The notes: generated by a model not told the origin, from the sequence alone. 37,555 nucleotides of DNA from Candidatus Zhuqueibacterota bacterium (GCA_029262035.1 JAJDAE010000241.1:1-37555); one strand, 5' to 3'. Numbered from the stretch's first letter, positions 2,640 through 29,898 are shown. A program made the numbers and translations.

Positions 2640-3653
2640 GTGATAAATAAATTGAACAAAACCGGATTAAAATTTCTAATTATTACACTGCTTGTTTGTG
2701 TAAACAGCACAGCTTTTTCTCAGGCTGGCAGAGCCGGTGCTTTTTTACGGCTTGGTGTTGGCGCAAGAGCAAAAGCCATGGGCAGCGCTTTTACCGGGCT
2801 CGCTCAGGGAGTAGAGTCAAGTTATTATAATCCGGCCGGATTACCCTTTCTGGAAAATAAGCAATTACAATTATCCTATCGAGCGCTTTCTTTGGACAGA
2901 CAATTTAATTACATTGGTTTTGGCTTGCCAATTCGCCCCAAAGTAGCGGGTGGTAGTGGAGAAAAAACACTTAATGGCGGGTTTGCACTAAGCTGGATAC
3001 ACGCCGGCATTAGTGATATCGATGGTCGAAATTCGGACGGTCAGCATTCTCAGACTTTATCAAACTCGGAAAATGCCTTCAACTTTGCATTTGGGCTTCA
3101 TCCGACACAAAAACTCGCGATTGGTTTAACAGTTAAAGTTGTTTTAAATCGTTTTCCGGATTTAGGTATTGAAGATAAAACGGTTTCTGCGAATGGAGTT
3201 GGTTTTGATTTTGGTTTACTTTACTTTGCAGCAGAGGGCGTTACTTTCGGAGTTACCTTCAAAGATATCAACGCGAAGTATCGCTGGAACAGTCAGGATA
3301 TTTTTGATGAGGATGGCTCTGAAACTATCGATGAATTTCCCAAAATTGGACGGTATGGAGCTGCTATAGATGTTCCACAAATTGACAACTTACTCGTTCT
3401 TTTTGACTATGAGCAAATATATAAAGAAAGCCTGTTTAAAGATAGAGTTGATGATCGGTTTCACTTTGGAGTTCAGTACGGTGTGAGAGAAAATATAAAG
3501 CTTCTCGGCGGTTTCGATGACGGCTCCGTTACTGCTGGCGCCGGTTATCAGTTTCCGATTTTTGGGAAAAGTGGGCAGTTATATTATGCCTATGTAGCTT
3601 CAGGTGATAAACCGGAAGAAGAACATGTTTTCACATGGGCCATCGAGTTTTAG
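2640..3653 (+). CDS. PorV/PorQ-family outer-membrane beta-barrel protein
   Basis: The 337-residue protein has a signal peptide ending ...NSTAFS before Gln. It then shows the family hallmark: GVGARAKAMGSAFTGLA followed by SSYYNPAGLPFL. Alternating hydrophobic strands and many aromatic residues continue to a terminal 'FTWAIEF', typical of an outer-membrane barrel. PorV-like proteins (FadL-related UPF0164 group) act as shuttle or attachment factors for T9SS cargo in Bacteroidota, and many FCB paralogues are annotated only as PorV/PorQ family. The gene lies directly behind a sorting-domain protein and ahead of a second PorV-like gene, so a role in secreting or anchoring that neighbour is a reasonable inference. 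The start codon is GTG, with no in-frame ATG near the signal peptide. Confidence 0.85.
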   Translation: MINKLNKTGLKFLIITLLVCVNSTAFSQAGRAGAFLRLGVGARAKAMGSAFTGLAQGVESSYYNPAGLPFLENKQLQLSYRALSLDRQFNYIGFGLPIRPKVAGGSGEKTLNGGFALSWIHAGISDIDGRNSDGQHSQTLSNSENAFNFAFGLHPTQKLAIGLTVKVVLNRFPDLGIEDKTVSANGVGFDFGLLYFAAEGVTFGVTFKDINAKYRWNSQDIFDEDGSETIDEFPKIGRYGAAIDVPQIDNLLVLFDYEQIYKESLFKDRVDDRFHFGVQYGVRENIKLLGGFDDGSVTAGAGYQFPIFGKSGQLYYAYVASGDKPEEEHVFTWAIEF

Positions 3654-3676
3654 ATAAATAAGAGAGAATTTAGTTC

Positions 3677-4588
3677 ATGAGCAGAATTACAATCAGTGTT
3701 TGCATCAATCTTTTAATTGTTTCTATTTTATGCGCTCAGTCCGGCTCAGCAGGTTCTGCGGGGCTTTCCTCACTAAAGCTTGGTGCGGGAGCCAGGGCAG
3801 GTGCTATGGCAAACGCTTATACCGCAGTCAGTGAAGATGCGGCTTCTACTTACTGGAATCCTGCAGGGTTGGCTTCCATCAAAAATGTAGAGTTGTTTTT
3901 TACGCATACCACATGGGCTGAAGATATCTCCCATGAATTTTTAAGTGCTGCTTTACCTGCATTTAACGGCGCTATTGGATTTAGCTTGTATTCAACAAAT
4001 ATTCCTGAAATTGAACGTAGAGTAGGGCCGTCCGAGCTACCGCTTGAGACAATCGAAGCAAACGATATTTCAGCCAGTTTATCTTATGGGCGTTCAATAA
4101 ACGATAAGTTGAGTGCCGGTATCTCGGCTAAGTACGTTTATCAAAAAATATTTGTGGAAAGTGCTTCCGGTTATGCTGTGGATTTAGGGATTGGGTATAA
4201 GCCTTTTCAAAACCCACTTCGAATTGCAGTTGTTGTCCAAAATTTGGGTTCTCTAAAAAAGTTAAAAGAGGAAAAAATTGAATTGCCGCAGACCTTGAAA
4301 TTTGGGGGCGCATATGAAATAAATTTTCCAGGTATAGGTGGTTCTTTGTTGCTGGCTTTAGATGCTGTCAAAGTTAAGGATTCTGACTTTCGTGCATTTG
4401 TGGGCGGTGAACTTAACTTCAAACAAAATTTCTCTCTTAGGCTAGGTCGGCAAACGGGAGAGAGCGCTAAATCTTTTTCTGCGGGTGTTGGGTTTAAGTT
4501 TGACAAGTATCGCCTTGATTATGGCTATACTCCACTGCAATTTGATTTGGGAAATACTCATAAGTTTTCAATTAGTCTTAATTTATAG
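3677..4588 (+). CDS. PorV/PorQ-family outer-membrane beta-barrel protein (second copy)
   Basis: The 303-residue protein has a short signal peptide (ends ...VSILCA before Gln). The same N-terminal hallmark as the previous gene follows: GAGARAGAMANAYTAVSEDAASTYWNPAGLASI. The rest is beta-barrel-like and ends 'HKFSISLNL' with a terminal hydrophobic residue. A GAGAGAA-like ribosome site precedes the ATG at a suitable distance, and the gap to the previous gene is 23 bases, so the four genes from the left edge look like one operon. It differs from the first copy in length and lacks the acidic insert around its residue 220. The two may have separate cargo, or one may be an assembly (PorQ/PorP-like) component; the sequence cannot decide. 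Confidence 0.85.
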   Translation: MSRITISVCINLLIVSILCAQSGSAGSAGLSSLKLGAGARAGAMANAYTAVSEDAASTYWNPAGLASIKNVELFFTHTTWAEDISHEFLSAALPAFNGAIGFSLYSTNIPEIERRVGPSELPLETIEANDISASLSYGRSINDKLSAGISAKYVYQKIFVESASGYAVDLGIGYKPFQNPLRIAVVVQNLGSLKKLKEEKIELPQTLKFGGAYEINFPGIGGSLLLALDAVKVKDSDFRAFVGGELNFKQNFSLRLGRQTGESAKSFSAGVGFKFDKYRLDYGYTPLQFDLGNTHKFSISLNL

Positions 4589-4716: not shown

Positions 4717-5340
4717 ATGAACTTTTTGGATATGTTTATCAAGGGTGGTTGGGCCATGTGGCCTATTCTTTTGGCATTGGTTATTGGTCTTGCTGTAAGT
4801 TTAGAAAGGTTTTATACTCTGTCCCGTGCATCCGTTAATACTCGTAAATTTCTTGAAGATATCAAACATGCATTAAAACAAGGTGGCGTTTCAAAAGCGA
4901 CTGAAGTTTGTGCAAATACACGCGGCCCGGTTGCTTCTATTTTTCACGCCGGACTTTTGAGAGTCGACCGTGGTGTTGAGCACGTTGAGAAAGCTATTAT
5001 GAATGCCGGTTCTATTGAAATGGCTTTTCTGGAAAAAGGTTTAGTATGGTTAGGTACCGTAATCAGTACTGCTCCGATGTTGGGCTTTCTAGGTACTGTA
5101 TGGGGTATGGTTGAAGCTTTTGAAGCTATCGCAGCTGCAAACGATATTTCACCTTCAATTGTTGCGGATGGTATTTCTACCGCTCTTCTGACTACAATGT
5201 TTGGTCTTGTTGTTGCTATTATCATTCAGATCATGAATAACTACTTCATCTCCAGAATCGATAGTTTGATTGTAGATATGGAAGAAAGTTCAGTTGATTT
5301 CGTTGATACACTGATTGAAATGGAAAAGAAAGCTGCTTAA
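4717..5340 (+). CDS. exbB: ExbB/TolQ/MotA-family proton channel protein
   Basis: The 207-residue inner-membrane protein is the proton-channel subunit that powers TonB. Three membrane segments are visible: around residues 14-32 (WPILLALVIGLAVSLERF), 108-130 (GTVISTAPMLGFLGTVWGM) and 152-172 (TALLTTMFGLVVAIIIQIM). The conserved LGFLGTVWGM and the Thr-rich third helix are typical of the MotA/TolQ/ExbB family. The length is normal. A strong Shine-Dalgarno precedes the ATG. Two ExbD genes and a TonB follow at short spacing, which identifies it as ExbB rather than TolQ. Confidence 0.93.
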   Translation: MNFLDMFIKGGWAMWPILLALVIGLAVSLERFYTLSRASVNTRKFLEDIKHALKQGGVSKATEVCANTRGPVASIFHAGLLRVDRGVEHVEKAIMNAGSIEMAFLEKGLVWLGTVISTAPMLGFLGTVWGMVEAFEAIAAANDISPSIVADGISTALLTTMFGLVVAIIIQIMNNYFISRIDSLIVDMEESSVDFVDTLIEMEKKAA

Positions 5341-5376
5341 TTACTTTTAATTTCAATCGGATAACGGAGAAACAAA

Positions 5377-5778
5377 ATGTTAGTTGAAAAAAAGAAATCA
5401 CGTAAACAAGAAATTCCGATGGCATCGCTTGCGGATATCGCATTTTTGCTCCTTATCTTTTTTCTCGTTACTACTACCATAGATGTGGACAGGGGGATAG
5501 GTTTAACCTTGCCTGCAAAAGGCGAGACAACTGAGGTTCGGAGTAAAAATATATGCAATATTCTCATCAATGCTGGGGGCGAGGTAGCCATTGACGGAGA
5601 ACTTGTGGCGCTTAATGAAATTGCCAGAGTTATTCGTGAAAAAATTGTTCAAAATGAGAATTTAATTGTTTCTATGAAAACCGACAGGCTTACTCGATAC
5701 GATGTGTTTGTTCAAGCTTTGGATGAACTGAAAGTTGCTAATGCAACTCGAATTTCAATCGCAGAGCCAGAAAAGTAG
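5377..5778 (+). CDS. exbD: ExbD/TolR-family biopolymer transport protein (first)
   Basis: The 133-residue protein has a short cytoplasmic N-terminus with IPMASLADIAF, one membrane helix (about residues 19-37) and a periplasmic domain. The conserved Asp of the ExbD helix, which carries protons, is present at residue 20. It would form the stator with ExbB and transmit force to TonB. A CGGAG ribosome site lies seven bases before the ATG. A second ExbD gene follows directly; the two share the helix signature but differ clearly in the periplasmic part. Confidence 0.92.
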   Translation: MLVEKKKSRKQEIPMASLADIAFLLLIFFLVTTTIDVDRGIGLTLPAKGETTEVRSKNICNILINAGGEVAIDGELVALNEIARVIREKIVQNENLIVSMKTDRLTRYDVFVQALDELKVANATRISIAEPEK

Positions 5779-5802
5779 AATTATTTTGGAGGGTGATAAA
5801 AA

Positions 5803-6216
5803 TTGAAGTTTCAATCAAAGCAAAAAGTGGAAGCTGGAATTCCCATGTCATCATTGCCAGATATTGTATTTCTACTTTTGATATTTTTTATGGTATCCTC
5901 AGTTTTTAAAGAATTTCAAGGTTTGCAGGTTACTTTGCCTGAAGCCCGGAAAATTGAAAAACTTGCGGGGAAACGAGATGTAGCCTATATGTGGGTAAAT
6001 AAAGGCGGAGAAATATCTATTGATGACAGGTTTGTTAGCTTAGGTGCAGTGTCAGGGATCGTATACAAGAAGAGGGTAGATCCAATGCATCCATTAAAAC
6101 TTGTTTCTATGAAAATAGATAAAGGTACTGAAATGGGTGTTATCACTGACATTCATGAAGAGTTAAGAGAGGCAGATGCCTTGAATGTAAATTATTCGAC
6201 CAAACTAGCAAATTGA
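5803..6216 (+). CDS. exbD: ExbD/TolR-family biopolymer transport protein (second)
   Basis: The 137-residue protein has the same layout as the gene before it: N-terminal IPMSSLPDIVF, one helix (about 19-37) with the conserved Asp at residue 20, then a periplasmic domain. The start is TTG, decided by a strong GGAGGG nine bases upstream; no ATG is available before the helix. Paired ExbD genes behind one ExbB are common in Bacteroidota and relatives and probably build a hetero-oligomeric ExbD dimer. The periplasmic part contains basic stretches (KKRVDP) absent from the first copy. Confidence 0.9.
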   Translation: MKFQSKQKVEAGIPMSSLPDIVFLLLIFFMVSSVFKEFQGLQVTLPEARKIEKLAGKRDVAYMWVNKGGEISIDDRFVSLGAVSGIVYKKRVDPMHPLKLVSMKIDKGTEMGVITDIHEELREADALNVNYSTKLAN

Positions 6217-6226
6217 GGTGTAAGCT

Positions 6227-6865
6227 ATGAGGAAAAATCCTGAAGCAGATCTAAAATTGAAGTACAAGAAGGCACTGGAAATTGGCATCATGTCAAGCCT
6301 TGGTATTCTAATTCTTGTCTTTCAATTATTTCGGGCGATTAACTTAGAAGCTACTGAATCTAAAACTAAAGAGATTAAGATCGAAGTGGCTGATATACCA
6401 CCAACAGAACAATTTAAGAGACCGCCACCCCCGCCAAAGCCTTCCATTCCTGTCCCTTCAGAGAGTGAAGATATTCCGGAGGATTTAACAATCGAGGCTA
6501 CAGATCTTGATTTATCAGATATTCCGCCACCGCCACCGCCACCAGAGGAAGATGATGGAATGAATATTTTTGTTCCTTTTGATGAACCACCATCACCAAT
6601 TGGAGGTTTTAGATCGATACAGAAGGCGCTAAAATACCCTGAAATCGCACGTAAAGCAGGAATTGAAGGTCGAGTAATTATTCAAGTTCAAGTTTCTGAA
6701 AAAGGTAAAGTTTTAAATACGAGGGTTATTAAGTCTCTTGGACATAGTGGTTGTGATGAGGCTGCTGTAAAGGCCATTAAAAACGTAAAATGGAAACCTG
6801 CATTACAGAGAGATAAACCCGTTAAAGTTTGGGTTGCTATACCGGTTATTTTTAGATTAAAATAA
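6227..6865 (+). CDS. tonB: TonB-family energy transducer
   Basis: The 212-residue protein has a cytoplasmic N-terminus, one membrane helix (about residues 18-37), a proline-rich periplasmic linker (about 55-115, with runs of five and seven prolines) and a C-terminal TonB domain (about 125-212). The TonB domain shows the classic 'YPEIARKAGIEGRV..QV.V.EKG' and 'GCDEAAVKAIKNVKWKPA'. It would couple the ExbB/ExbD proton channel to outer-membrane TonB-dependent receptors; no receptor gene is in the window. A GAGGTG site precedes the ATG, and the gap to the second ExbD is ten bases. The linker is short, so it spans the periplasm less easily than E. coli TonB. Confidence 0.93.
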   Translation: MRKNPEADLKLKYKKALEIGIMSSLGILILVFQLFRAINLEATESKTKEIKIEVADIPPTEQFKRPPPPPKPSIPVPSESEDIPEDLTIEATDLDLSDIPPPPPPPEEDDGMNIFVPFDEPPSPIGGFRSIQKALKYPEIARKAGIEGRVIIQVQVSEKGKVLNTRVIKSLGHSGCDEAAVKAIKNVKWKPALQRDKPVKVWVAIPVIFRLK

Positions 6866-6885
6866 CTCATTATTTGATTTATAAG

Positions 6886-6918
6886 AAAGCGGTGCTAGAT
6901 TATAGTACCGCTTTTTTT
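6886..6918 (+). terminator. Rho-independent terminator after tonB
   Basis: A hairpin with arms AAAGCGGTGCTA and TAGTACCGCTTT (one G-T pair) around a five-base loop ends in a run of seven or more T. It lies 20 bases behind the TonB stop and closes the operon. Confidence 0.85.
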
Positions 6919-6939
6919 GTATAAACTATTTTTTTGATT

Positions 6940-7461
6940 ATGAAGCAGTTAGTTACACTAAAGAGCGTTATATTTTTACTAGGCTTTATAGAGTTTTCCT
7001 GCTTTAATCCATTTGCCCCTGAGCTAAATAATAAAATCGATCTTAGCAACGTTATTACTGAGCAACAGTCTCCCGATGAAGTCTTGCAAAATTTTCGATT
7101 TGCTTACACATTTAAGGACTCCCTTCTTTATAGTGATGTACTCGACGAATCTTTTGTTTTTGAATTTTTTGATCCTAATTTAGAACCGTCCGGTGGACTA
7201 CGTACTTGGAGCCGTGATGTAGATCTAAAAACCACCGGGAGTCTCTTTCGTACATTTGATGTGATAAATTTAATTTGGTTAAACACACTCTTTGAGGAAG
7301 GTGATGACGAATTCGAACGCAGGTTTTTAAGGTTTAATCTAAATTTGTTTAGTTCAAATGAAAATTTTATTGTGACAGGAACTTCTATTTTCACTTTTAA
7401 AAGGAGCACGTCAGATAATAAATGGAGGCTGGTACGGTGGAAAGATGAGTCAGATTTCTAA
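6940..7461 (+). CDS. Hypothetical lipoprotein
   Basis: The protein has 173 residues from the ATG at 6940; a TTG six bases earlier is less likely. The N-terminus is a short lipoprotein-like signal with a candidate lipidated Cys at residue 21 (FIEFSCFNPF). The rest is a single compact domain with 'SPDEVLQNFRFAYTFKD' and, near the end, 'FTFKR....KWRLVRWKDES'. This pattern resembles the NTF2/SnoaL-like fold seen in other FCB lipoproteins, but the match is by eye only. It stands alone behind the tonB terminator and about 100 bases before the next gene. Function unknown. Confidence 0.65.
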   Translation: MKQLVTLKSVIFLLGFIEFSCFNPFAPELNNKIDLSNVITEQQSPDEVLQNFRFAYTFKDSLLYSDVLDESFVFEFFDPNLEPSGGLRTWSRDVDLKTTGSLFRTFDVINLIWLNTLFEEGDDEFERRFLRFNLNLFSSNENFIVTGTSIFTFKRSTSDNKWRLVRWKDESDF

Positions 7462-7567
7462 TATGTGGAATAATGGTTTCCATTGTGTTGTTCAAAGATT
7501 TAGTTTATGACATCATTTGTTGATTTTAAATCTATCAAATGCAATCATTAAAGGATAGGTGACGTAT

Positions 7568-8188
7568 ATGAAACTTGATAAAACTGAAATAAAATCATTA
7601 ATTACAGGTTACATTGACGGGGAACTAAATGAGGTCGATGTGAAAAAAGTTAAGGAGCTTTTAGAGAACTCTAAAGAATTTAAGAATCTGTATGAAGCCG
7701 AAATGGAGATAAAGGGGTTGGTGACACAACGAGTACAAAAGGGAAAAGCTCCAGTTGAATTAAAAAGACGAATTAAGAGGCAAATTTCCAGACAAAATGG
7801 GAGACCCGGTTTTGCTCAATTAGTTAGTGAGCTCTTTGAGTTTCGCCCGATGACAAGTTCATTTGCGATGGCAGCGATTGCTATTCTTATACTTTTGCCA
7901 AATTTATCCAAGTTAAGTTCCCCCAACGCCGTTGAGTTTATGCAAATAAGTGGTGAAGTTGTTTGTCTTGATTGCAATATTCTTTCAAAACATATTGATG
8001 TCCCTGAACACACAGATCAAGTGCATAGACCAGGTATTAGGGGTGATGATGGTTCGATTTGGACAATCATTCAAAACAGTCAGGGACTAAATGTAGATAT
8101 GAGTTTTTTGAGAAAAAAAATACAGATATCAGGTTTAGCTTTTAATGAATTAAGATACATAAAAGTAGAAGAATACCATTTACTCTAA
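7568..8188 (+). CDS. Anti-sigma-factor-like membrane protein without zinc motif
   Basis: The protein has 206 residues from the ATG at 7568, with an AGGTGA site five bases before; a GTG at 7559 is possible. The N-terminal 75 residues resemble the cytoplasmic domain of zf-HC2/RskA-type anti-sigma factors ('LITGYIDGELNEVDVKKVKELLENS'), but the HxxxCxxC zinc ligands are missing. One membrane helix follows (about 94-112, SFAMAAIAILILLPNL), then an extracytoplasmic domain of about 90 residues with a C-L-D-C pair. No sigma factor gene lies beside it, so the partner is unknown. It could also be an unrelated membrane-anchored sensor. Confidence 0.55.
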   Translation: MKLDKTEIKSLITGYIDGELNEVDVKKVKELLENSKEFKNLYEAEMEIKGLVTQRVQKGKAPVELKRRIKRQISRQNGRPGFAQLVSELFEFRPMTSSFAMAAIAILILLPNLSKLSSPNAVEFMQISGEVVCLDCNILSKHIDVPEHTDQVHRPGIRGDDGSIWTIIQNSQGLNVDMSFLRKKIQISGLAFNELRYIKVEEYHLL

Positions 8189-8244
8189 GACTATTATTTT
8201 AAGTATCTCCCCAAATCATTCAACAATTTTGACTTTGTTAAAGA

Positions 8245-8273
8245 TTGACAAATACTATTTATTTAGCTATCTT
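8245..8273 (+). promoter_or_regulatory. Sigma70-like promoter of the dagK-WbqC-glycosyltransferase operon
   Basis: A perfect TTGACA (8245-8250) and TATCTT (8268-8273) are 17 bases apart, about 50 bases upstream of the kinase start. It is the only good promoter in the 137-base gap after the anti-sigma-like gene. Confidence 0.55.
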
Positions 8274-8325
8274 TAGCTCGCCAAATAAAATTATCAACAC
8301 CCAAATATAGCTATTCTTAAAACTT

Positions 8326-9225
8326 TTGATCTTTAATAAAGTACATATAATTGTTAATCCCATTTCCGGTGGAAAAAATAAGAAGGAAGTAGGGAGCTTA
8401 ATCCAAAAGTCTATTTCAGATGCTTGCGTAACCTCAAAACTATTTTTTACTTCGGCTCGAGGTGATGCTTCTAAGCTTTGTAAAAGCGCTTTAATTAGTA
8501 AATGTGATTTGGTTATTGCGGTAGGTGGTGATGGAACCATAAATGAAATTGCTTCCGAATTAGTGAACTCTAACACAACTTTGGCTATTATTCCAATGGG
8601 TTCAGGTAATGGTTTTGCCAGAAGCCTGGAGATACCTTTAGAAGTAGAAAGCGCATGCGAGCTGATTTCATCAGGAGTGGTGCAAGCAATTGATGTTGGC
8701 AAAATTAATGATAGGTTTTTTTTTCTGATTGCTGGCGTTGGGTTTGATGCTGTGGTGGGTGAGGCGTTTGATGAACACAATCATAGGGGGCCTTTACCAT
8801 ATTTTTATTTAAGTGCTAAGGAATTTTTTAGCTATAAGCCTGAAAATTTTCAAATTATTTGTAACGGGAAAAGCTTTGCTATCTCACCATTTCAATTTAC
8901 AATTGCAAACGGGAAACAATATGGGAATAATGCTTATATTGCCCCTGATGCGTTAATGAATGATGGGCTGTTAAACATCTGCATTATCCATCGCCTACCA
9001 CTATATAGAATTTTCACTCAGTTACCTAAAATGTTTCTCGCCAGATTGGACAATGTCCCAGACACAGAATTTTTAACAACATCACATTTGAAAATAATTA
9101 GAGATAGTGATGGTACTATTAATGTCGATGGTGAACCAATTAAGGAGAAAGCTGTTTTAGAAATCTCTGTTTTACCCAAAAGTCTAAAAATGATAACTCC
9201 AAAATTTTCTAGCAGTCTTTTATGA
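8326..9225 (+). CDS. Diacylglycerol/lipid kinase family protein (DagK/YegS-like)
   Basis: The 299-residue protein has the DagK catalytic domain. 'IVNPISGGKNK' (about 9-20) and 'AVGGDGTINEIASELV' (GGDGT at about 67-71) form the nucleotide site. 'IPMGSGNGFARSL' follows at about 89-101, and a late 'DGTINVDGEP' belongs to the second domain. The family phosphorylates lipids such as diacylglycerol or related alcohols with ATP. The start is TTG, since an in-frame stop lies just upstream and no ATG precedes the first strand; there is no clear ribosome site, so the start is weakly supported. It heads an operon with a DUF2064 transferase, a WbqC-like protein and a family 2 glycosyltransferase, which suggests glycolipid or envelope-polymer work. 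Confidence 0.9.
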   Translation: MIFNKVHIIVNPISGGKNKKEVGSLIQKSISDACVTSKLFFTSARGDASKLCKSALISKCDLVIAVGGDGTINEIASELVNSNTTLAIIPMGSGNGFARSLEIPLEVESACELISSGVVQAIDVGKINDRFFFLIAGVGFDAVVGEAFDEHNHRGPLPYFYLSAKEFFSYKPENFQIICNGKSFAISPFQFTIANGKQYGNNAYIAPDALMNDGLLNICIIHRLPLYRIFTQLPKMFLARLDNVPDTEFLTTSHLKIIRDSDGTINVDGEPIKEKAVLEISVLPKSLKMITPKFSSSLL

Positions 9226-9231
9226 AATATC

Positions 9232-9891
9232 ATGAATGACCTAATTATTTTTGCCAAATATCCCGAGCCTGGGAAAGTTAAAACAAGGCTCGGAAAAACT
9301 ATTGGATTTGAGCTTGCTTGTGAGTTTTATAAAGTATTTTTGAAACTCACATTTGATATGGCTAAAAATAGCAGCATTAATTCTGTAAAAATTTATTTTG
9401 CTCCAGAGGACAAAAAAGATGAATTTGGAAAAATGATACCTGATGAATTCAGCTTGTTTCCACAAAGCGGTGGTTCCCTTGGTACAAAATTGCATAATGC
9501 TTTTAGGGATTCTTTTAATAGTGGCGCAAACAAAACTGTAATTATAGGGAGCGATAGTCCGACTCTGCCCTCAACAGTTATTAGAGATGCAATAAATCAT
9601 TTAAACGATAATGATCTGGTACTTGGCCCTGCGGATGATGGTGGTTATTATTTAATTGGTACTAGTGTCCCATATGAGTTTCTATTTGAGGATATCGATT
9701 GGAGTACGACTTCAGTATTAGCTCAAACTTTGAGCAAAGCGAAACAAAATAAACTTAAACATTGTCTTTTACAGGAGTGGTATGATGTTGACGATTTACC
9801 ATCTTTAAAAAAGGCTAAAAGTGATGATACTTCCGGAGTCATTGCTGAATTAATGAATAAACATTCTGCCATGTTCCCACATACCTTATGA
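9232..9891 (+). CDS. DUF2064/TIGR04282-type glycosyltransferase
   Basis: The 219-residue protein is a GT-A-like nucleotidyl/glycosyl transferase. The N-terminus 'IFAKYPEPGKVKTRLG' is the family signature. A central 'GSDSPTLP' and 'LGPADDGGYYLIG' supply the nucleotide- and metal-binding parts. Families of this kind are called rSAM/selenodomain-associated transferase 1 or arsenosugar-biosynthesis transferase in databases, though the real substrate is mostly unknown. It starts six bases after the kinase stop and its own stop overlaps the ATG of the WbqC-like gene (ATGA), so it is translationally coupled. Confidence 0.85.
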   Translation: MNDLIIFAKYPEPGKVKTRLGKTIGFELACEFYKVFLKLTFDMAKNSSINSVKIYFAPEDKKDEFGKMIPDEFSLFPQSGGSLGTKLHNAFRDSFNSGANKTVIIGSDSPTLPSTVIRDAINHLNDNDLVLGPADDGGYYLIGTSVPYEFLFEDIDWSTTSVLAQTLSKAKQNKLKHCLLQEWYDVDDLPSLKKAKSDDTSGVIAELMNKHSAMFPHTL

Positions 9892-10586
9892 TTTTAGCAG
9901 CTCACCAGCCTTGTTATTTACCTTCAATATTTTTTTTTGAAAAGCTCGCCGCCGCCGACGTTTTTGTTTTGGCCGACGACTATCAATATACAACCAATAA
10001 TCAAATAAATCGTACCAAAATTAAAACAACAATTGGCTGGAATTGGATGACTTTACCGGTTTTAACCAGCGGCTATAGCGGCCAACTGATTAGGCATGCA
10101 AAACTAAATAGTGATTACAATTGGCAAGATAAACATATTAGAACAATCAATAGTAATTATTCGTATTCTGCTTATTTTGACCAGTACATCGACCGTATTG
10201 AAAACATTATACAAGCGAAGAAAAAATTTTTGTTTGAACTAAATCTTGATTTTATTTCGTTTGTTATTAATGAGTTAAATTTATCTACGAAAATTATGGT
10301 TTCTTCTGAGCTAAACTTACCACAGAAGTCCAAGGATAAACTTTTGGCAATGTTGGATAAAACAAATTGTAATACTTATTTAGCGAATTCCGAACTAACT
10401 AATTTTTTGAAAAAGGAAGAATTCGAAACAAAAGGTTTATTGTTGAAGTTTGTTAAACCAGCCGTCAAAAGGTATCATCAGTTGTTCGGTGAGTTTATCC
10501 CTAATCTTTCAATAATAGATTTGCTACTTAATGAGGGATACGAATCTATAAATTTTATGACATTAGAATATAAAGATGAAAAATAG
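9888..10586 (+). CDS. WbqC-like family protein
   Basis: The 232-residue protein begins with the WbqC signature 'AHQPCYLPSIFFFEKLAAADVFVLADD' (about 4-31), followed by 'QYTTNNQINRTKI' and 'WMTLPVL'. WbqC-like proteins occur in O-antigen and other polysaccharide loci, with proposed but unproven roles in amino-sugar or amidation chemistry. The start codon overlaps the previous stop by four bases and the end overlaps the next gene by eleven, so the operon order is tight. The middle part (residues 100-170) is rich in Lys, Asn and Ile like the neighbours, giving no sign of transfer. Confidence 0.85.
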   Translation: MILAAHQPCYLPSIFFFEKLAAADVFVLADDYQYTTNNQINRTKIKTTIGWNWMTLPVLTSGYSGQLIRHAKLNSDYNWQDKHIRTINSNYSYSAYFDQYIDRIENIIQAKKKFLFELNLDFISFVINELNLSTKIMVSSELNLPQKSKDKLLAMLDKTNCNTYLANSELTNFLKKEEFETKGLLLKFVKPAVKRYHQLFGEFIPNLSIIDLLLNEGYESINFMTLEYKDEK

Positions 10587-11268
10587 TACGAAAATTATAG
10601 TAATTATACCTGCCTTTAATGAAGAAGATTCTATCGGGCTTGTCCTAAATGATATACCGAAAAACTTAATAGATAAAGTAATTGTCGTTGATAACAACTC
10701 ATCTGACAGAACAGCTGAAGTTGCGAATGCAGCCGGTGCAGTAGTTGTTGAGGAAAAGCAGAAAGGATACGGAAAGGCCTGTTTGACAGGAATCACCCAT
10801 GCTGCTCAATATGAGCCTGACACTATAGTTTTCATTGATGGAGATTATAGTGATCATCCGGATGAAATGACTCTCTTAATTGATAAGCTGCAAAGTGGCT
10901 TTGATATGGTAATAGGTTCTCGAGCCCTTGGTGATGCGGAAAAGGGAGCCTTGTTACCTCAGGCACGATATGGTAATATTTTGGCAGTAACGCTGATTAA
11001 ATTGTTTTTTGGTTTTAAATACACAGACCTCGGACCTTTCCGAATTATTAAATGGCACAAACTGATTGAGCTTGGCATGATAGATGAAAATTTCGGCTGG
11101 ACTGTTGAAATGCAAATTAAGGCAGTTCAAAATGAATTACGGATTGCAGAGATTCCTGTGAGTTACAGAAAACGTGTTGGGGTTTCTAAAGTAACCGGAA
11201 CAATCTCCGGAACGATCAGAGCTAGTTATAAAATTATATATACCATATTTAAATATCTTTTTGTTTAA
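10576..11268 (+). CDS. Family 2 glycosyltransferase (dolichyl-phosphate-mannose-synthase-like)
   Basis: The 230-residue GT-A enzyme starts 'IIVIIPAFNEEDSIG', then 'VIVVDNNSSDRT' and 'FIDGDYSDHPDE', where the DxD metal motif is. 'GSRALGD', 'DLGPFRII' and a basic C-terminus ('YRKRVGVSKVTGT') follow. It lacks C-terminal membrane helices, which matches short GT2 enzymes of the DPM1/UDP-glucose type in Bacteroidota and Archaea. It is the last gene of the operon and its stop slightly overlaps a minus-strand coding remnant, so transcription converges here. The acceptor lipid is unknown. Confidence 0.9.
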   Translation: MKNSTKIIVIIPAFNEEDSIGLVLNDIPKNLIDKVIVVDNNSSDRTAEVANAAGAVVVEEKQKGYGKACLTGITHAAQYEPDTIVFIDGDYSDHPDEMTLLIDKLQSGFDMVIGSRALGDAEKGALLPQARYGNILAVTLIKLFFGFKYTDLGPFRIIKWHKLIELGMIDENFGWTVEMQIKAVQNELRIAEIPVSYRKRVGVSKVTGTISGTIRASYKIIYTIFKYLFV

Positions 11269-11402
11269 TAATTTTGGCGGTATTTTTCAGACATGTCAAA
11301 CCACCAGGTTTCTTCCATTGTTTTAGTATACCATATAAATTTGTGCAAAAATAAGCTGTAAAGAGCATGTTTTTTCCCCCGAAGGTAGGTATTGTGGGGC
11401 AC
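11265..11402 (-). pseudogene. Short coding remnant or small ORF downstream of the DUF6913-like gene
   Basis: On the minus strand a frame of 45 codons runs from a GTG at 11402 to a TAA overlapping the glycosyltransferase stop. The translation looks like protein rather than chance: it has three Trp, many Tyr/Phe and a charged tail (around 'MEETWWFDMSEKYRQ'). The frame stays open a further 90 bases upstream, but there it overlaps the end of the next gene in another frame and has no ATG. The ending faintly resembles the C-terminus of NodB/PuuE-type polysaccharide deacetylases (FL..I...WF...E.A), so it may be the tail of a lost gene. Confidence is low. Confidence 0.35.
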
Positions 11403-11430
11403 ATTATTAAACTCGAGTATAAAAATCGTA

Positions 11431-12024
11431 CTAGTTAACTTCTTGTTGTTTCTTTGGGGTTTTACTTTTTTGTGGAGAGGGTTTGGAGTCTGCTATGGTA
11501 GTAATGTATTTAACCATGGAGTTATATTTATTCGTTAAGGATTCAGATGGATTAATGCGGATTTCAAAATTGTAAAAATCGGATTTTTCCTTATTGTTAA
11601 AGCATGCTCGAAGAGGAGCGCCACTTTGCATTAATAACAAGACACAGAGAACGTCAAATTTCAACTTAAAATCAAGAAAAAGATCATAGGCTTTGTTTTG
11701 TATTAGGCCTTTTAAGGATGATTTTGGTAATCCAAAAAAATTAAGATCTTCATTTGAATAGGGAATTATGTCAACTTTTAGCTTACTATCTAAAAAACTT
11801 ACCATTTCAAGCTTGGTGATTACCGTAATTTCCCATTCGGGTTGTAAGCTACGTAAATTTTCGAGTGACTTAAGAGCTGCTCCGAATTCTTCAACCCGAT
11901 TGGGCATGTAAATGATAATCTTGTTAGATTTAACTAATTGGTCACAGACATTAATTGCACGTGTTCTTATGAATATTTTTTGTCGCAGGCGTAACCACCC
12001 ACCTATAATTTTTTTTGCTATCAT
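11431..12024 (-). CDS. Hypothetical protein, DUF6913/GT9-like Rossmann domain
   Basis: The 197-residue protein has a basic N-terminus, a Rossmann-like core ('KIIIYMPNRVEEFGAALKSLENL', 'WEITVITKLE') and 'AYDLFLDFKLKFDVLCVLLLMQSGAPLRACFNNKEKSDF'. That pattern recalls both the N-terminal half of heptosyltransferases (GT9) and the Bacteroidota family DUF6913. Only one domain is present, so a complete GT9 enzyme is excluded. The tail is low-complexity (Pro, Lys, Ser, Gln). An AGGTTGAA site precedes the ATG and a separate promoter-like box lies 45 bases upstream. Function unknown. Confidence 0.6.
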   Translation of the reverse strand: MIAKKIIGGWLRLRQKIFIRTRAINVCDQLVKSNKIIIYMPNRVEEFGAALKSLENLRSLQPEWEITVITKLEMVSFLDSKLKVDIIPYSNEDLNFFGLPKSSLKGLIQNKAYDLFLDFKLKFDVLCVLLLMQSGAPLRACFNNKEKSDFYNFEIRINPSESLTNKYNSMVKYITTIADSKPSPQKSKTPKKQQEVN

Positions 12025-12126: not shown

Positions 12127-14106
12127 TCAAAATTCACCTTGGAGCTGCATGCTAAACCGCTGGTCTACATTGTTGTCAATTAAGTCTGCACCGCTGCCCA
12201 ACTGGCTGGCGTCTTTTCGGTATAATTCTGAAAATTTGCAAAATAAATTTACCCGATTTGTTAAATGATACTTAACGAGAAAATACCACCTTGTGCCTTG
12301 TCCAAAGAGAGCTCTATTTGTTAGCACTCCAGGCATATCATTTTCGTATTGATATACCCGGGAATCAAAAGAATCTGTTCCAAAAAAACTTATTCGTGTC
12401 CATAGTTTGAGTTTTTGAGTAACTTCCAAGCGGATGTCCTGGTAAATAAGTACACCGTTTTCTTGTTTATTTGAAAGATTTTTGGATGTAGAATTATAAT
12501 TGATTTTAGTGAAATTTACACGGCTCCGAATAAGTAAGTTTTTGATACCCCGGAAGTCAACCTGGGCACGATATTGTCTTTGTTGGCGCTGAAGCAGTTC
12601 ACTTTTTTCACGATCGTAAGAATCATGGAAATTTTCTGTAGATTGTTTCGATTTTTGTTTGTATAGCAAGGTAAATAATATTGTGCTGGAAAATTTGTGC
12701 TGTATTTGGGTTAACATGTCATTACCAGAACGGGGCAGCGGTTCAAAAAAACTGCGCCATGGGAATTTGTAGATATCAAAATAGGCGGAAAATTTTGTAC
12801 GACTCTTAATTTGATATTCTATGCCACTATAAAAACCTGTTTCATTTTGTGTCTCACTTGACTCTCCAAAGCCAAGACTATGAAAATTTTGAAAATCCTT
12901 ATCATACTTTCTAAATAAAAATGCGAGCTTGAGAGGATTTTCATAAATTCTGAGACCTGTTATTGATGCAGTGCCGCCATTTTGGGATTGAGCAAATTCT
13001 CCAAAGAAATCAAATTTTGAATTTGAGTATTCCCAGTCAAATCCTAACACATGATTCGACTTGCCTCTGAAATCAAAGTGATTTCTTATTAAGTCTGAAT
13101 TGTTGAAATTCTTTTTGAATTTTGACAAATATGCAGTTCCTCCAAAACGGAGTTGAGAACGAGCAGAGTATTGAATGCGCCCACCGGCAATTGACTCAAT
13201 TTGGCCATCTTTTCTCAAAATTTCAGATTCAGTTCGATGGAATCCGGATGTAGGAATACTTGATATTTCATTTTCGGAAATTGGCGTTGCGTCTAACTTA
13301 GATCGCGAAACAAACGGTATAAATTTAAATTGATTGAATTGAATTGTTGCAGCAAATCCCAATAATCCGGCATTTTCATCTACCGATAAATATTTTTTAA
13401 ATCCAGGCCCTCTTTTTTTTATTGGATAAGTAGTGCTGGTGCCTTTTGAATAGCCATATGGTCCCCAAAATGATAAACCCTGTCCAAACTGTAGTTGATA
13501 ATTCCCAGCGATGAAATGAATATTATTTGATGCTTTCAAGGACAAATAAAATAAAGTTAAGTCATTATATTTTTTTTCACCTGCATCTTTTTCCGTTAAC
13601 AATCCACCAGAAATGCTTTTGCCTAAATTAAATTGAAGGCGGTTGTAAATCTTATTGGCATTAGATTTATATGTGCCGTTATTGTATCCAACAGGCTTGT
13701 TTAGTTGTCTGGAAATTCTTGTTCTGTAGTTAACGGTTATAGGATTATGTATATATTTTTGAGCTGATTCAGTCGTGATAAAATGGTTGATCTTTTCAAA
13801 CAACGTTAAATCAAACCCTTGTAGGAAAAGCAATCCGAGTGTCGACTTAAACAAACCACTCTTTTTGCGATGCTCAATTATTTGGAGTGCTTGTTGTTCC
13901 GAAATAAAGGGGAGCGACGCGAGTTCTGTGGCAGAAGCCTGGTTAATATTAATAGGGTTTTCTCTCAGGAACTCTATATTTTCCAGTAACTCGGATTGCT
14001 CAGATTCATCAGAAAGAGATTCAAGTAAGTCCTCATCTGTGTTGTCCTGCGCAAAGGACCAGCCAAATACCAACAAAATCAGGGTTGCGATAATGGATTT
14101 GCTCAT
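12127..14106 (-). CDS. Outer-membrane barrel protein with N-terminal ComEA-like helix-hairpin-helix domain
   Basis: The 659-residue protein has a signal peptide (1-19, ends WSFA before Gln20) and an acidic linker. A helix-hairpin-helix domain at about 50-110 starts 'NPININQASATELASLP' and continues 'QALQIIEHRKKSGLFKS' and 'LFEKINHFI'. About 540 residues of beta-barrel follow, with many amphipathic strands and an aromatic end (MQLQGEF). The HhH domain matches soluble ComEA, which binds DNA during natural transformation. However, both hairpin GIG motifs are altered (FIS and GFD), so DNA binding may be weakened or shifted to another ligand. The start lies three bases behind the stop of the PorV-HhH gene, so they are coupled. 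The layout is known in Bacteroidota sequences, but I know of no assigned function. Confidence 0.8.
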   Translation of the reverse strand: MSKSIIATLILLVFGWSFAQDNTDEDLLESLSDESEQSELLENIEFLRENPININQASATELASLPFISEQQALQIIEHRKKSGLFKSTLGLLFLQGFDLTLFEKINHFITTESAQKYIHNPITVNYRTRISRQLNKPVGYNNGTYKSNANKIYNRLQFNLGKSISGGLLTEKDAGEKKYNDLTLFYLSLKASNNIHFIAGNYQLQFGQGLSFWGPYGYSKGTSTTYPIKKRGPGFKKYLSVDENAGLLGFAATIQFNQFKFIPFVSRSKLDATPISENEISSIPTSGFHRTESEILRKDGQIESIAGGRIQYSARSQLRFGGTAYLSKFKKNFNNSDLIRNHFDFRGKSNHVLGFDWEYSNSKFDFFGEFAQSQNGGTASITGLRIYENPLKLAFLFRKYDKDFQNFHSLGFGESSETQNETGFYSGIEYQIKSRTKFSAYFDIYKFPWRSFFEPLPRSGNDMLTQIQHKFSSTILFTLLYKQKSKQSTENFHDSYDREKSELLQRQQRQYRAQVDFRGIKNLLIRSRVNFTKINYNSTSKNLSNKQENGVLIYQDIRLEVTQKLKLWTRISFFGTDSFDSRVYQYENDMPGVLTNRALFGQGTRWYFLVKYHLTNRVNLFCKFSELYRKDASQLGSGADLIDNNVDQRFSMQLQGEF

Positions 14107-14109
14107 GAT

Positions 14110-15267
14110 TCATTTCACTGTTATAAGTGGTAAAATCTTTTCCAGTTTATTTTTCCCTATTCCTTTTACTAAGCCTAAGTCCTCTTTCTTTTTAAATTCA
14201 CCATTCTTTTTTCTAAAATTAATTATAGCAGATGCCGTTTTTTTACCGATACCCGGTAAATTCACCAGATCTTTAACTTCTGCTGTGTTGATGTTAATGG
14301 GATTATTGTCAGTTTTCTCTACTTCTATTTTTTTAGATTGAGATTGTTTTTTTTGAATGAGGGGAAGACTATGCTCTTCAGGAAGCGTCAGGTTTTTGGA
14401 ATTTAACTTACCAAATTTTATCGATAGCGAAACTTGGTGTGTCAATCCCAAATCATTGTGCGAAAAAAAAGCATAATCTATCAAAAAGGGGTTTATAGTA
14501 ATTCCAAATCCGGATGAAAACCTGTCAGGATTGCTTGCTGTACCTAATCTGAGCGATAAGCTTGGAATAAGTTCGTACTCTATACCGAATCTAATTTCCT
14601 CGGCAAATTCAATTTCTTTGAAGATTTCAAGGTTTAGAATAAGTTCAGGTGTTGGCGAAATAGATACTCCCGACTTTATGGATTGCGGCATAGTTTCTTT
14701 TGTTTTCCCAATGTTCGACCTATTTAGATTTTGCGCTTGAAAACCCAATCTCATTTTGTTGTTAAGGTGCATAAGTAAGCCGATGTCTAGTCCAAATGTA
14801 GATGTTGAGCCATAATTTTTTATTTGTAGAGAACTATAATTAAGAGCTAGCCCATAATAGAATTTTTGTTCCACCTGCTTGCCAATAGCAAATTTTAAAG
14901 TTTGTTCGCTTAACAGTCCATTGTTTAAACTAATGATGCCAATCCCTGTACTAATTTTTGAAAAAGGTAATATGAAAGCAGCTGAACCAAAATTCACATC
15001 CTCAAGCCCAAACGGCTTTTGGTAGAACACAAGAAGCTCTTTTCTTTCGATTTGTGATAAACCACCGGGATTTAGAAAAATGGCATCTGCTGAATTGGCA
15101 AGAGCAACATAGGTAACACCCATTCCCAATGACCTTGTTCCAATCGGCAGATTGCTAATTTGCGATAATATTATTTGTGGGAACATTAAAAGAATTATAC
15201 AGGTTGGTAAGGTGGTTAATTTTCTACTTTCCACTGAAATTAAACGTAGTATTAACTTGACAATCAT
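14110..15267 (-). CDS. PorV-type outer-membrane barrel fused to a C-terminal ComEA-like helix-hairpin-helix domain
   Basis: The 385-residue protein has a leader with a hydrophobic stretch that ends ...IILS before Gln. A PorV/PorQ-type barrel follows: 'IGTRSLGMGVTYVALANSADAIFLNPGGLS', later 'IDYAFFSHNDLGLTHQVSLSIKFG'. A Lys/Ser/Gln linker (about 285-320) leads to a HhH domain at 321-385 that starts 'NPININTAEVKDLVNLPGIGKKTA' and ends 'LVKGIGKNKLEKILPLITVK'. Both GIG hairpins are intact, as in DNA-binding ComEA. The 'NPININ' opening is shared with the HhH domain of the next gene, three bases downstream, suggesting one origin for both domains. The HhH domain would hang in the periplasm below the barrel. 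A DNA-handling role is inference. Confidence 0.85.
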   Translation of the reverse strand: MIVKLILRLISVESRKLTTLPTCIILLMFPQIILSQISNLPIGTRSLGMGVTYVALANSADAIFLNPGGLSQIERKELLVFYQKPFGLEDVNFGSAAFILPFSKISTGIGIISLNNGLLSEQTLKFAIGKQVEQKFYYGLALNYSSLQIKNYGSTSTFGLDIGLLMHLNNKMRLGFQAQNLNRSNIGKTKETMPQSIKSGVSISPTPELILNLEIFKEIEFAEEIRFGIEYELIPSLSLRLGTASNPDRFSSGFGITINPFLIDYAFFSHNDLGLTHQVSLSIKFGKLNSKNLTLPEEHSLPLIQKKQSQSKKIEVEKTDNNPININTAEVKDLVNLPGIGKKTASAIINFRKKNGEFKKKEDLGLVKGIGKNKLEKILPLITVK

Positions 15268-15286
15268 GGCGATAATTTTCTATATT
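15257..15286 (+). promoter_or_regulatory. Sigma70-like promoter of the PorD-like gene
   Basis: TTGACA (15257-15262) and TATATT (15281-15286) are 18 bases apart and lie about 33 bases upstream of the ATG at 15319. The -35 box overlaps the first codons of the divergent PorV-HhH gene, so transcription of the two could interfere. Confidence 0.5.
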
Positions 15287-15318
15287 TTGTTAATATTTGA
15301 AGTTTTGGAGTCAATTTA

Positions 15319-16197
15319 ATGAACTATTTAAAAATGAATATAATTTGTCTTTTAGTATTTTCTCTTTTGACTTTCCATGAAAGTCTTTCTGCGGAGGTAA
15401 AGGCAAAAGTCGAAGTGATAATTGACAAACTTCCCGACGAAAAACAAGAAAAGATGAAAGATTTTCATAGTGTTATTCAAGAGTATGTTAAAAGTGTTAA
15501 ATGGCTTGAAGACGACGACGAAATGCCAATTGATATCTCCTTTCAATTTTTCCTAAATGAGAAAAGATCAAGCTTTGAAGACCGCTACGCCTGTGAGTTT
15601 TTGATTTCGTATAAAGATGTACAATATTTCGATCGCAGAGTAATTTTTCCATATAATCCCAGTGACCAGCTTATTTATAATGAACAGTCCGTTGAACCAT
15701 TAACCGGCGTTTTGAATTTTTATATCAACATGGTACTTGGAAATGAACTGGATAAATATAGAAATTTTGGTGGTGACGTTTATTATAAGCGTGCACTTAA
15801 TTTTGCTGCTATTGGAAAATTTGTTCGAACAGAATTTATTCTTGGTTCAAATGAACGTGAAGAACTGGCAAAACGTATTTTCATTGAACCATTTATCACA
15901 TTTCGTACCATGAAAGATTATTATTTTTATGGCTTATTTGCTTTTCAAACCGATAAAAAAATTAAAGAAGCCAGAGGCAACATAAAAAGAGCTATTGAAC
16001 TCCTTGACAAGGTTTTTCAAATAACTCCTACATCTAAAATAGAACTGACCGAACCCAAACAATTTCTTGACGCCCACTATGTTGAAATAGTGGATTTATA
16101 TAAAGATTATGTTGATAGAGACAAAATATTTGAGACTTTAATAAGATTAGATCCGGAACGAAAAGAACAGTATGAAGAATATTTAACCGGATCTTAG
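15319..16197 (+). CDS. DUF4835/PorD-like exported protein
   Basis: The 292-residue protein has a signal peptide of about 25 residues (ends ESLSA before Glu; the only predicted signal-peptidase-I substrate here without Gln at +1). The body fits DUF4835: 'VIQEYVKSVKW' near the start, then 'VEPLTGVLNFYINMVLGNELDKYRNFGGDVYYKRA', and a helical C-terminal half with 'LFAFQTDKKIKEARGNIKRAIELLDKV'. DUF4835 includes PorD, a Porphyromonas gingivalis protein needed for type IX secretion. A GGAG site precedes the ATG. The assignment is by eye; the length agrees with the family. Confidence 0.7.
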   Translation: MNYLKMNIICLLVFSLLTFHESLSAEVKAKVEVIIDKLPDEKQEKMKDFHSVIQEYVKSVKWLEDDDEMPIDISFQFFLNEKRSSFEDRYACEFLISYKDVQYFDRRVIFPYNPSDQLIYNEQSVEPLTGVLNFYINMVLGNELDKYRNFGGDVYYKRALNFAAIGKFVRTEFILGSNEREELAKRIFIEPFITFRTMKDYYFYGLFAFQTDKKIKEARGNIKRAIELLDKVFQITPTSKIELTEPKQFLDAHYVEIVDLYKDYVDRDKIFETLIRLDPERKEQYEEYLTGS

Positions 16198-22554: not shown

Positions 22555-23760
22555 ATGGTAAGACATTTCACATTTTCAGTTCTGCTTTTTGGGGCTTATT
22601 TACATGCACAAGAACCCCGTTTTAGTAAACAGATCAATTCCGGCTTTGTTGAATCGGATGATATCTCTGAAGCATCTGGTATTGCAGCAGGTCAAAAAAA
22701 TCCGGGTGTTTTATGGGTGCATAATGACTCTGGTGGGTCGCCAATAGTTTATGCGATGTCCACAAACGGAAAACATTTGGGTGAATATATTATTCAAGGT
22801 ATAGCAAATCGGGACTGGGAGGACATTGCTGTTGCGCCGGGGTCGATATCAGGTCAATCTTATATTTATATCGGTGAGATTGGTGACAACGATGCTAAAT
22901 TCAATACCAAATATGTTTATAGAATTCAGGAGCCGCAAGTTGATACGCTTACAGCGCCGGCATCTTTCATGTTATCCGGTGTTGAAACTATCAGAATAAA
23001 GTATCCGGACGGCAACCGTGATGCTGAAACGCTATTAGTTGATCCGACAACCAAAGATATCTATATTATCTCCAAGCGTGAAAGCAATCCAGTGGTTTAC
23101 CGTATTCTTTATCCACAATCTTTGGATGAAGAAAATGTTGCTGAGAAATTGGGTACTCTAAATATTTTGTTTCCGGTTGCGGGCGATATCTCAATGGATG
23201 GCAGTGAAATTTTAGTTAAAAATTATCACCCGCTTCACACCAATGAGAATATTTATTATTGGTACCGAAGGGCTGGACATACAATTTGGGACGCCTTGCA
23301 AGATACAGCGAGAATTGTGCCGTATGAACCAGAAATTCAGGGTGAAGCAGTCTGTTGGGATTCTGATGGCCTGAATTACTACACAGTTAGTGAGGAACAG
23401 GATGTTTTCGGCCGTCAAGAGCCTGCACGCCTTTATCGCTATGAGCGTTTAGGTGTCACCTCGGTGCAATCAAGTAAAAATATGCCAAAATCTATTCTTC
23501 TAAATCAAAATTACCCCAATCCGTTTAACCCGACAACAACGATTACGTACACAGTTTCTGTATCCGGTTATATTGAAATTGATTTATTTGATGCCATTGG
23601 GCGCTACATTGAAAAGTTGTCTGCCGGATATAATTCTGCTGGTACGCATAAAATTCAGTTAAATGCCGGGCATCTTAGGAGTGGCGTTTATTATTATAAA
23701 CTATCCAGTCAAGGGGTTCAAAGTAACGATATGGTGAAAAAAATGATAATACTTAAATAA
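22555..23760 (+). CDS. Secreted beta-propeller protein with T9SS type A sorting domain
   Basis: The 401-residue protein has a short signal peptide (1-18, ends YLHA before Gln). The propeller body (about 30-300) has 'DISEASGIAAGQKNPGVLWVHNDSGG', 'NRDWEDIAVAPG' and 'YIYIGEIGDNDA', typical of phytase-like or esterase-like propellers. The C-terminal domain (about 320-401) begins 'NYPNPFNPTTTITY' and ends 'VKKMIILK', the standard T9SS type A sorting domain. An AAGAAGG site precedes the ATG. It would be exported by type IX secretion and probably anchored at the cell surface. Substrate unknown. The glutaminyl cyclase gene lies ten bases downstream. Confidence 0.88.
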   Translation: MVRHFTFSVLLFGAYLHAQEPRFSKQINSGFVESDDISEASGIAAGQKNPGVLWVHNDSGGSPIVYAMSTNGKHLGEYIIQGIANRDWEDIAVAPGSISGQSYIYIGEIGDNDAKFNTKYVYRIQEPQVDTLTAPASFMLSGVETIRIKYPDGNRDAETLLVDPTTKDIYIISKRESNPVVYRILYPQSLDEENVAEKLGTLNILFPVAGDISMDGSEILVKNYHPLHTNENIYYWYRRAGHTIWDALQDTARIVPYEPEIQGEAVCWDSDGLNYYTVSEEQDVFGRQEPARLYRYERLGVTSVQSSKNMPKSILLNQNYPNPFNPTTTITYTVSVSGYIEIDLFDAIGRYIEKLSAGYNSAGTHKIQLNAGHLRSGVYYYKLSSQGVQSNDMVKKMIILK

Positions 23761-25675: not shown

Positions 25676-25896
25676 AAAGTGTGTCCCTTATTTTTATGTG
25701 GTCTTAATTTCCCTGTTTTTATGATAACGTTCCAGCACTTCTTACAAGTTACAGCTTTCGGGTTTTTTGTTGCAATCCCTTCCATTTCGGCGCGATGAGC
25801 AGCTTCACGGTCACGTGGATTACAGGCGACCAAGCCGTCATCATTTAAGAAATGTAGGTCTCGTTTCCCAAGCCTTTTTTGACTTCGTGACTTCAT
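25672..25896 (-). CDS. Small Cys/His-rich protein between ygeY and ygeW
   Basis: The 74-residue basic protein starts five bases behind the ygeY stop and overlaps the ygeW start by four bases (ATGA), so it is translationally coupled. It has Cys25 (VACNPRD), His34, a CKKC pair (51 and 54), and His67 and His72, a plausible zinc-ribbon-like set. The spacing is not that of a named zinc finger I know. 'HFLNDDGLVACNPRDREAAHRAE' is well-structured and unlikely to be chance. Function unknown; metal delivery or regulation within the purine-catabolic operon is a guess. Confidence 0.7.
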   Translation of the reverse strand: MKSRSQKRLGKRDLHFLNDDGLVACNPRDREAAHRAEMEGIATKNPKAVTCKKCWNVIIKTGKLRPHKNKGHTL

Positions 25897-25901
25897 TTAA
25901 T

Positions 25902-27083: not shown

Positions 27084-27133
27084 TCAAAATACTCCTATCA
27101 AATTATTTATTTACATGTAATTGCGAAAATATT

Positions 27134-27160
27134 TGCCAGGCACTTTTAAAGTGCCTGGCA
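27134..27160. repeat. 27-base interspersed palindrome, copy 1
   Basis: Arms TGCCAGGCACTTT and AAAGTGCCTGGCA are perfectly complementary around one central T. It lies 12 bases behind the stop of the PLP enzyme (minus strand). A near-identical copy stands at 30367-30393, again 12 bases behind a stop. It may end or stabilise mRNA like REP elements. Confidence 0.85.
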
Positions 27161-27172
27161 CATTGGTAAAAA

Positions 27173-28633: not shown

Positions 28634-28638
28634 ATTCG

Positions 28639-29892: not shown

Positions 29893-29898
29893 ATTGTC

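Follow-up and report, generated by a model that had tools for sequence, protein, structure and literature searches.

A conserved large outer-membrane barrel and its PorV-like partner in Candidatus Zhuqueibacterota and related bacteria: a candidate module for DNA uptake

Background

Two adjacent genes in the 37,555-nucleotide stretch of DNA analysed here (hereafter the window; Candidatus Zhuqueibacterota bacterium, GCA_029262035.1, JAJDAE010000241.1:1-37555) encode a large outer-membrane barrel protein with a degenerate ComEA-like helix-hairpin-helix (HhH) domain and a smaller PorV-like barrel protein, and the conserved module to which they belong is the large barrel together with its PorV-like partner rather than a double HhH arrangement. 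Since this is the conserved unit, the pair is more important than the window alone suggests. In some relatives the pair shares an operon with comEC and may therefore account, in those bacteria, for the missing step of DNA uptake at the outer membrane. No published function or description of such a pair was found in the literature, in agreement with an initial reading of the window made from the sequence alone (the sequence-only reading).

For the passage of DNA across the outer membrane of the Bacteroidota, the one screen found in the literature named proteins reported mainly from the Flavobacteriaceae. A family that is near-universal, lacks a Pfam model for its barrel, co-occurs with a partner and in some lineages is abutted by comEC makes a candidate that can be tested directly. 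Should the cargo not be DNA, a multi-phylum module located beside porD would still belong to the core of the outer membrane of these bacteria and have gone unrecognised.

Materials and methods

Genes were called as mechanical open reading frames (ORFs). Protein domains were identified with Pfam and NCBIfam models, structures were predicted with AF2 from alignments of 62 relatives for the large barrel and 51 relatives for the PorV-like protein, and the models were compared with known structures using Foldseek. Homologues were sought in genomes of the window's phylum and in a Bacteroidota-type sample of 198 genomes, all from the same phylum as an Emticicia genome. The tree of the large barrels was inferred with FastTree.

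Results and discussion

The two genes and the predicted folds of their products

Both genes lie where they were originally read, on the minus strand, and are separated by 3 nt (14107-14109), a junction at which a 4-nt overlap of stop and start codons is frequent in the relatives. The distal gene (12127-14106) encodes a protein of 659 amino acids, for which the signal peptide, HhH domain and barrel first read from the sequence were all recovered. The predicted Sec signal peptide, read directly from the sequence, covers residues of about 1-19 (14050-14106; MSKSIIATLILLVFGWSFA followed by QD), the degenerate HhH-like domain residues 49-110 (13777-13962) and the 24-strand beta-barrel, predicted by AF2, positions 12133-13740, all on the minus strand. 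The model (pLDDT 90.5, pTM 0.88) shows 24 long strands and an HhH bundle, the latter folding over residues 38-110 with block pLDDT values of about 84-94. Beyond the HhH domain, the long C-terminal part of the protein has no significant Pfam match, and the Foldseek search returned no close structural relative, the best PDB matches being MtrB-type proteins, PirA, BtuB and FimD with a query TM of about 0.4 (best about 0.41).

The upstream gene (14110-15267, minus strand) encodes a protein of 385 amino acids (pLDDT 88.6), which comprises a predicted N-terminal export signal region, read directly from the sequence (residues about 1-36; 15160-15267), a PorV/FadL-type barrel of 14 strands (residues 76-285; 14413-15042), a disordered linker (residues 298-320; 14308-14376, with pLDDT below 50 over residues 298-313) and a well-formed ComEA-like HhH tail (residues 321-382; 14122-14307, pLDDT about 96, and about 93-98 over residues 321-385). 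In the Foldseek search the barrel groups with FadL and the PorV of the type IX secretion system (T9SS) at E-values of 1e-11 to 1e-10. However, the protein scores 70.5 bits with the NCBIfam PorV/PorQ model NF033709, below its cut-off of 90, and the designation 'PorV-type' is therefore right as a fold class while the protein stands outside the curated family.

The HhH domains and the loss of the DNA-contacting motif

The matches to PF12836 (HHH_3) at residues 49-110 of the 659-residue protein (E 2.8e-13) and 321-382 of the 385-residue protein (E 2e-19) both exceed the Pfam cut-off and hence are not due to chance; spurious matches are excluded by these scores, by the AF2 models, in which both regions fold as HhH as had been anticipated, and by the family-wide conservation. 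The domains open with NPININQ and NPININT in the two window proteins, bearing out the shared opening reported earlier, and the tail carries both GIG hairpins intact (LPGIGKK and VKGIGKN), again as first read, at the places where the large barrel has PFIS and GFD. With TIGR00426 the tail scores 59.8 bits, above the cut-off of 53.1, and the barrel domain 25.3, below it; the whole-length model TIGR01259 (cut-off 152) is missed by both proteins (33 and 63 bits). The best matches to the HhH part of the large-barrel profile include the B. subtilis-type ComE operon protein 1 and Thermus ComEA-related structures, and the profile also matches GspK and PsbU, HhH-fold proteins for which we know of no DNA binding.

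Among 125 relatives of the large barrel, the GhG motif is present in hairpin 1 of none and in hairpin 2 of nine, typical forms being LPWLT and LPFIS, and the net charge of the domain is near neutral (0 in the window, mean -0.5). As GhG is missing from hairpin 1 and the charge is near neutral, the conserved domain, judged by its sequence, keeps the HhH fold but has probably lost the canonical ability to bind DNA. The window tail, with both GIG hairpins, is positively charged, and GhG occurs in hairpin 1 of 9 of 19 PorV-like tails. Among adjacent PorV-like partners, a tail is carried by those of the window, of 5/7 relatives of the same family and of single genomes of three other families, a distribution that needs four changes on the barrel tree, which has several long branches; most such tails retain GIG. 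With its GIG hairpins intact, the tail is a patchily distributed addition within the window's clade; because few PorV-like proteins have an intact one, the description of two barrels each with a ComEA domain holds for that clade and fails for the conserved module. In a second, distant lineage (loci L119-L128), unlinked PorV-like proteins with varied neighbours carry C-terminal HhH tails with hairpins of the GMT/GMS type.

Both ends of an outer-membrane barrel normally lie in the periplasm, and both HhH domains should therefore face the periplasm.

Several motifs of the large barrel are near-invariant in the alignment of relatives (EKD-GE, GQGL, E244, HR---E and DA). Many of the invariant residues are acidic and aromatic ones are also near-invariant, the net charge of the large barrel overall being positive. 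These residues, together with the family-wide degeneracy of the HhH domain, the FadL-like partner, the GspK and PsbU matches and the occurrence of the large barrel in nearly all genomes, would suit a general transporter pair in the outer membrane that handles a small or hydrophobic solute. The HhH domain would then serve as a structural periplasmic cap or protein dock, as it does in GspK or PsbU, the GIG tail being a later add-on. The barrels of one family (f8; six loci), which have neither an adjacent PorV-like gene nor a recognisable HhH domain, also agree with such a function. This explanation predicts neither the abutment of comEC described below nor that PorV-like partners of two distant lineages should carry HhH tails, and we consider it less likely than DNA uptake, though a serious alternative. 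Several of the f8 loci have a possible lgt (prolipoprotein diacylglyceryl transferase) gene upstream.

Conservation and co-occurrence of the pair

The large barrel was identified in 28 of 30 relatives, including all 23 of those that are at least 90% complete. Its profile matches 82/82 genomes of the window's phylum, a few of them as fragments or in the HhH part only, and about 163 of the 198 genomes of the Bacteroidota-type sample (E below about 1e-25); relatives are also present in Ignavibacteria and in named Bacteroidota (Emticicia and Chitinophaga-type genomes). With homologues in hundreds of genomes, an oddity of the window or an assembly artefact is ruled out.

A PorV-like gene lies directly upstream of the large barrel in 48/61 loci of the window's phylum and 41/72 loci of the Bacteroidota-type sample, counts that vary slightly with the method; the stop and start codons of the two genes often overlap by 4 nt. 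Of the 163 genomes of that sample with the barrel, 109 also have a strong PorV-like orthologue (E<1e-30), as against none of the 35 that lack the barrel (Fisher p 7e-15, with shared ancestry ignored). The conservation of the pairing in other genomes, for which the sequence-only reading had proposed a search, is thus borne out, and in this sample the PorV-like gene never occurs without the barrel. In three cases where the two genes are unlinked (two Ignavibacteria and Emticicia), one strong PorV-like orthologue is located elsewhere in the genome, and small Bacteroidales-like genomes mostly have the large barrel alone. At two Ignavibacteria loci (L006 and L007, about 6600-12000) the barrel is preceded by genes for a TlpA-like thioredoxin, an exported protein of ~550 aa and a lipoprotein-like product, which suggests that the Ignavibacteria barrel belongs to a different operon.

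Linkage to porD and the type IX secretion system

On the other side of a 51-bp divergent intergenic region (15268-15318), an arrangement that is conserved, the PorV-like gene faces a PorD-like gene (DUF4835; 15319-16197, plus strand), a conserved neighbour that matches PF16119 at E 9e-28 and scores 94.7 bits with NF052317 against a cut-off of 170. The divergent PorD-like gene recurs in 41/48, 29/42 and 2/2 loci of three groups, the last being the Ignavibacteria, where the large barrel is located elsewhere, and the PorV-like gene is linked to porD far more often than to any com gene. At one Ignavibacteria locus (L116, 9878-11416) a gene of largely masked sequence lies between the PorD-like gene and an apparent recA.

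PorD binds SprE/PorW of the T9SS (PMC10994853, PMC8754138). This binding, the divergent porD and the PorV/FadL fold of the smaller protein raise the possibility of a T9SS accessory, in which the PorV-like protein would be a cargo shuttle like PorV, the large barrel would be the site dedicated to its docking or release, and PorD would be co-regulated from the shared promoter region, with the HhH domains binding T9SS proteins and not DNA. Consistent with this, the PorV-like gene is commoner in genomes with SprA (in a hand tally of barrel-positive genomes, confounded by lineage, about 101/119 with SprA and about 8/44 lacking it), T9SS-type genes are present within the window, and SprA_N is found in the window genome. 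However, the large barrel is present in 20/20 SprA-negative genomes among those listed and missing from 35 SprA-positive genomes; its presence does not track SprA, a pattern that does not fit a strict T9SS component. Moreover, the abutment of comEC is unexplained by such a role, and the available portions of the literature on Sov/SprA complexes (PMC10994853, PMC8754138) name no such barrel. A T9SS accessory is regarded as somewhat less likely still than a general transporter, but it too is a serious alternative.

Linkage to comEC and the possible role in DNA uptake

ComEA is the DNA-catching protein, and comEC encodes the channel for DNA import. In four genomes comEC lies directly downstream of the large barrel on the same strand, with gaps of -1, +3, +2 and -10 nt. 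In the first (L139) the order is PorV-barrel-comEC and the barrel stop and comEC start share TAATG; the next two (L140 and L141) have the same order with gaps of 3 and 2 nt; in the fourth (L142) barrel and comEC overlap by 10 nt and are followed by an apparent recQ. The three comEC neighbours that were scanned encode full ComEC (PF03772 at E 4.7e-54 to 3.6e-60, plus PF13567). A rough estimate of the number of comEC neighbours expected by chance, taking one gene in about 3500 per genome over about 160 genomes, is ~0.05. The linkage is confined to one part of the barrel tree (4/77 loci), on which the comEC label needs two changes, implying at least one and perhaps two events. A likely dprA, recognised by eye from the sequence, occurs five genes away (-5) in four Chitinophaga-type loci. 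The search for linkage to com genes had been set beforehand, and its outcome is divided: comEC adjoins the barrel in four genomes, with overlaps of 1-10 nt or gaps of 2-3 nt, but no linkage to comEC, dprA or comF was seen in the window's phylum.

ComEC is present in 197/198 genomes of the Bacteroidota-type sample and 75/82 of the window's phylum. At 197/198 a presence/absence test is uninformative, though near-universal ComEC fits a core large barrel. In 20/20 genomes checked, a ComEA-like protein is encoded separately; it has a membrane anchor at the N-terminus and mostly intact hairpins (the second in 19/20), and in the loci inspected its gene lies beside dnaJ. The copy of the window genome (contig C325) has 147 aa, an N-terminal anchor and the same dnaJ neighbour. 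In the window's phylum, the standalone gene belongs to a conserved cluster of dnaJ, comEA and unknown envelope genes (six loci), possibly a locus for competence or pili. Three secretins are encoded in the window genome, and these, with the separate ComEA-like protein, indicate that other routes for DNA exist.

Because the test for comEC linkage that had been set beforehand gave a positive result in some relatives, and because both domains belong to the ComEA type, DNA uptake is ranked first among the explanations considered, and the pair is quite possibly an outer-membrane module for DNA uptake or docking. Periplasmic topology, complex formation, DNA binding and DNA passage are what we infer here. 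The pair would help double-stranded DNA to enter the periplasm for natural transformation, the 24-strand barrel acting as the outer-membrane conduit or receptor and the PorV-like barrel as its membrane partner. The HhH domains of both would hang into the periplasm. That of the large barrel would dock proteins; the tail found in the window's clade, with its GIG hairpins intact, might grip the incoming DNA and hand it over to the inner-membrane ComEA and ComEC. Of the DNA capture, transport or anchoring originally proposed, the comEC linkage favours uptake, but the more frequent divergent porD linkage, which had been overlooked, weighs against the proposal. Against DNA uptake are also the HhH domain of the barrel, which is near neutral and in 125/125 relatives lacks from hairpin 1 the GhG that contacts DNA, and the acidic invariant residues of the barrel, which are not expected of a DNA pore.

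An outward role, in which the pair would anchor or secrete DNA (biofilm or vesicle DNA) instead of importing it, would draw on the same domain anatomy and outer-membrane position. As ComEC is an importer and no DNA-export or biofilm genes are among the recurrent neighbours, this role is considered very improbable.

Transformation of Riemerella anatipestifer requires both an HhH protein and an outer-membrane protein, neither resembling known machinery, and the latter has been reported only from the Flavobacteriaceae (PMC8459023); this parallel speaks for DNA uptake by the pair. The transformation genes found in that species include no recognisable member of the pair, which counts against it. 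It is a tempting candidate idea that the 35 barrel-negative genomes are those of flavobacteria using the Riemerella-type protein instead. The fuller proposal, that the large barrel and its partner form a secretin-independent outer-membrane pore for DNA uptake in Bacteroidota and relatives, which passes DNA to ComEA/ComEC and has been replaced in the Flavobacteriaceae by the Riemerella-type protein, is put forward tentatively.

Other genes of the window

Downstream of the large barrel, a DUF6913-like gene (11431-12024, minus strand; Pfam) is conserved only inside the phylum, a related gene being at +1 in 34/68 loci. Two tandem PorV/PorQ-family genes (2640-4588; 85.7 and 171.8 bits with NF033709) are followed by TolQ/TolR-like and TonB-like genes (4717-6865). 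A protein with a T9SS type A sorting domain is encoded at 22555-23760 (TIGR04183, 34.1 bits, cut-off 23), and a purine-degradation-like cluster at 24695-32961 includes a YgeW-like carbamoyltransferase, a YgeY hydrolase and a selenium-dependent xanthine dehydrogenase (TIGR03311, 965 bits, above cut-off).

Comparison with known systems

In pilus-based uptake, secretins such as PilQ are the outer-membrane route for DNA; PilQ and other secretins thus share a location with the proposed conduit, whereas the secretin domain PF00263 is absent from both proteins of the pair in the Pfam scan. The FadL-family BamG of the Bacteroidota BAM complex (PMC12611786) resembles the PorV-like protein in being a FadL-family barrel that is a subunit of a larger outer-membrane machine; BamG was not among the profile matches in a PDB sequence search at E<=1, and no BAM genes recur at the locus. 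The Riemerella proteins RA0C_RS04915/04920 (outer membrane/fimbrium) and RA0C_RS02645 (HhH) likewise combine outer-membrane and HhH components that are essential together with ComEC (PMC8459023), but they are separate proteins there, RS04915 is reported only from the Flavobacteriaceae, and the likeness is one of description only.

The PorV/PorQ family and the SprA-PorV complex are similar to the pair in that a 14-strand FadL-like barrel works with a large barrel, and a PorD-like neighbour is present; the large partner here, however, has 24 predicted strands and not 36, and its presence does not follow that of SprA. ComEA of B. subtilis, V. cholerae and Thermus shares with the pair an HhH domain with a [D/N][I/L]N-A opening, and the window tail has both GIG hairpins. 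Whereas ComEA is a short periplasmic or transmembrane-anchored protein, the HhH domains of the pair are fused to outer-membrane barrels, the one on the large barrel being degenerate.
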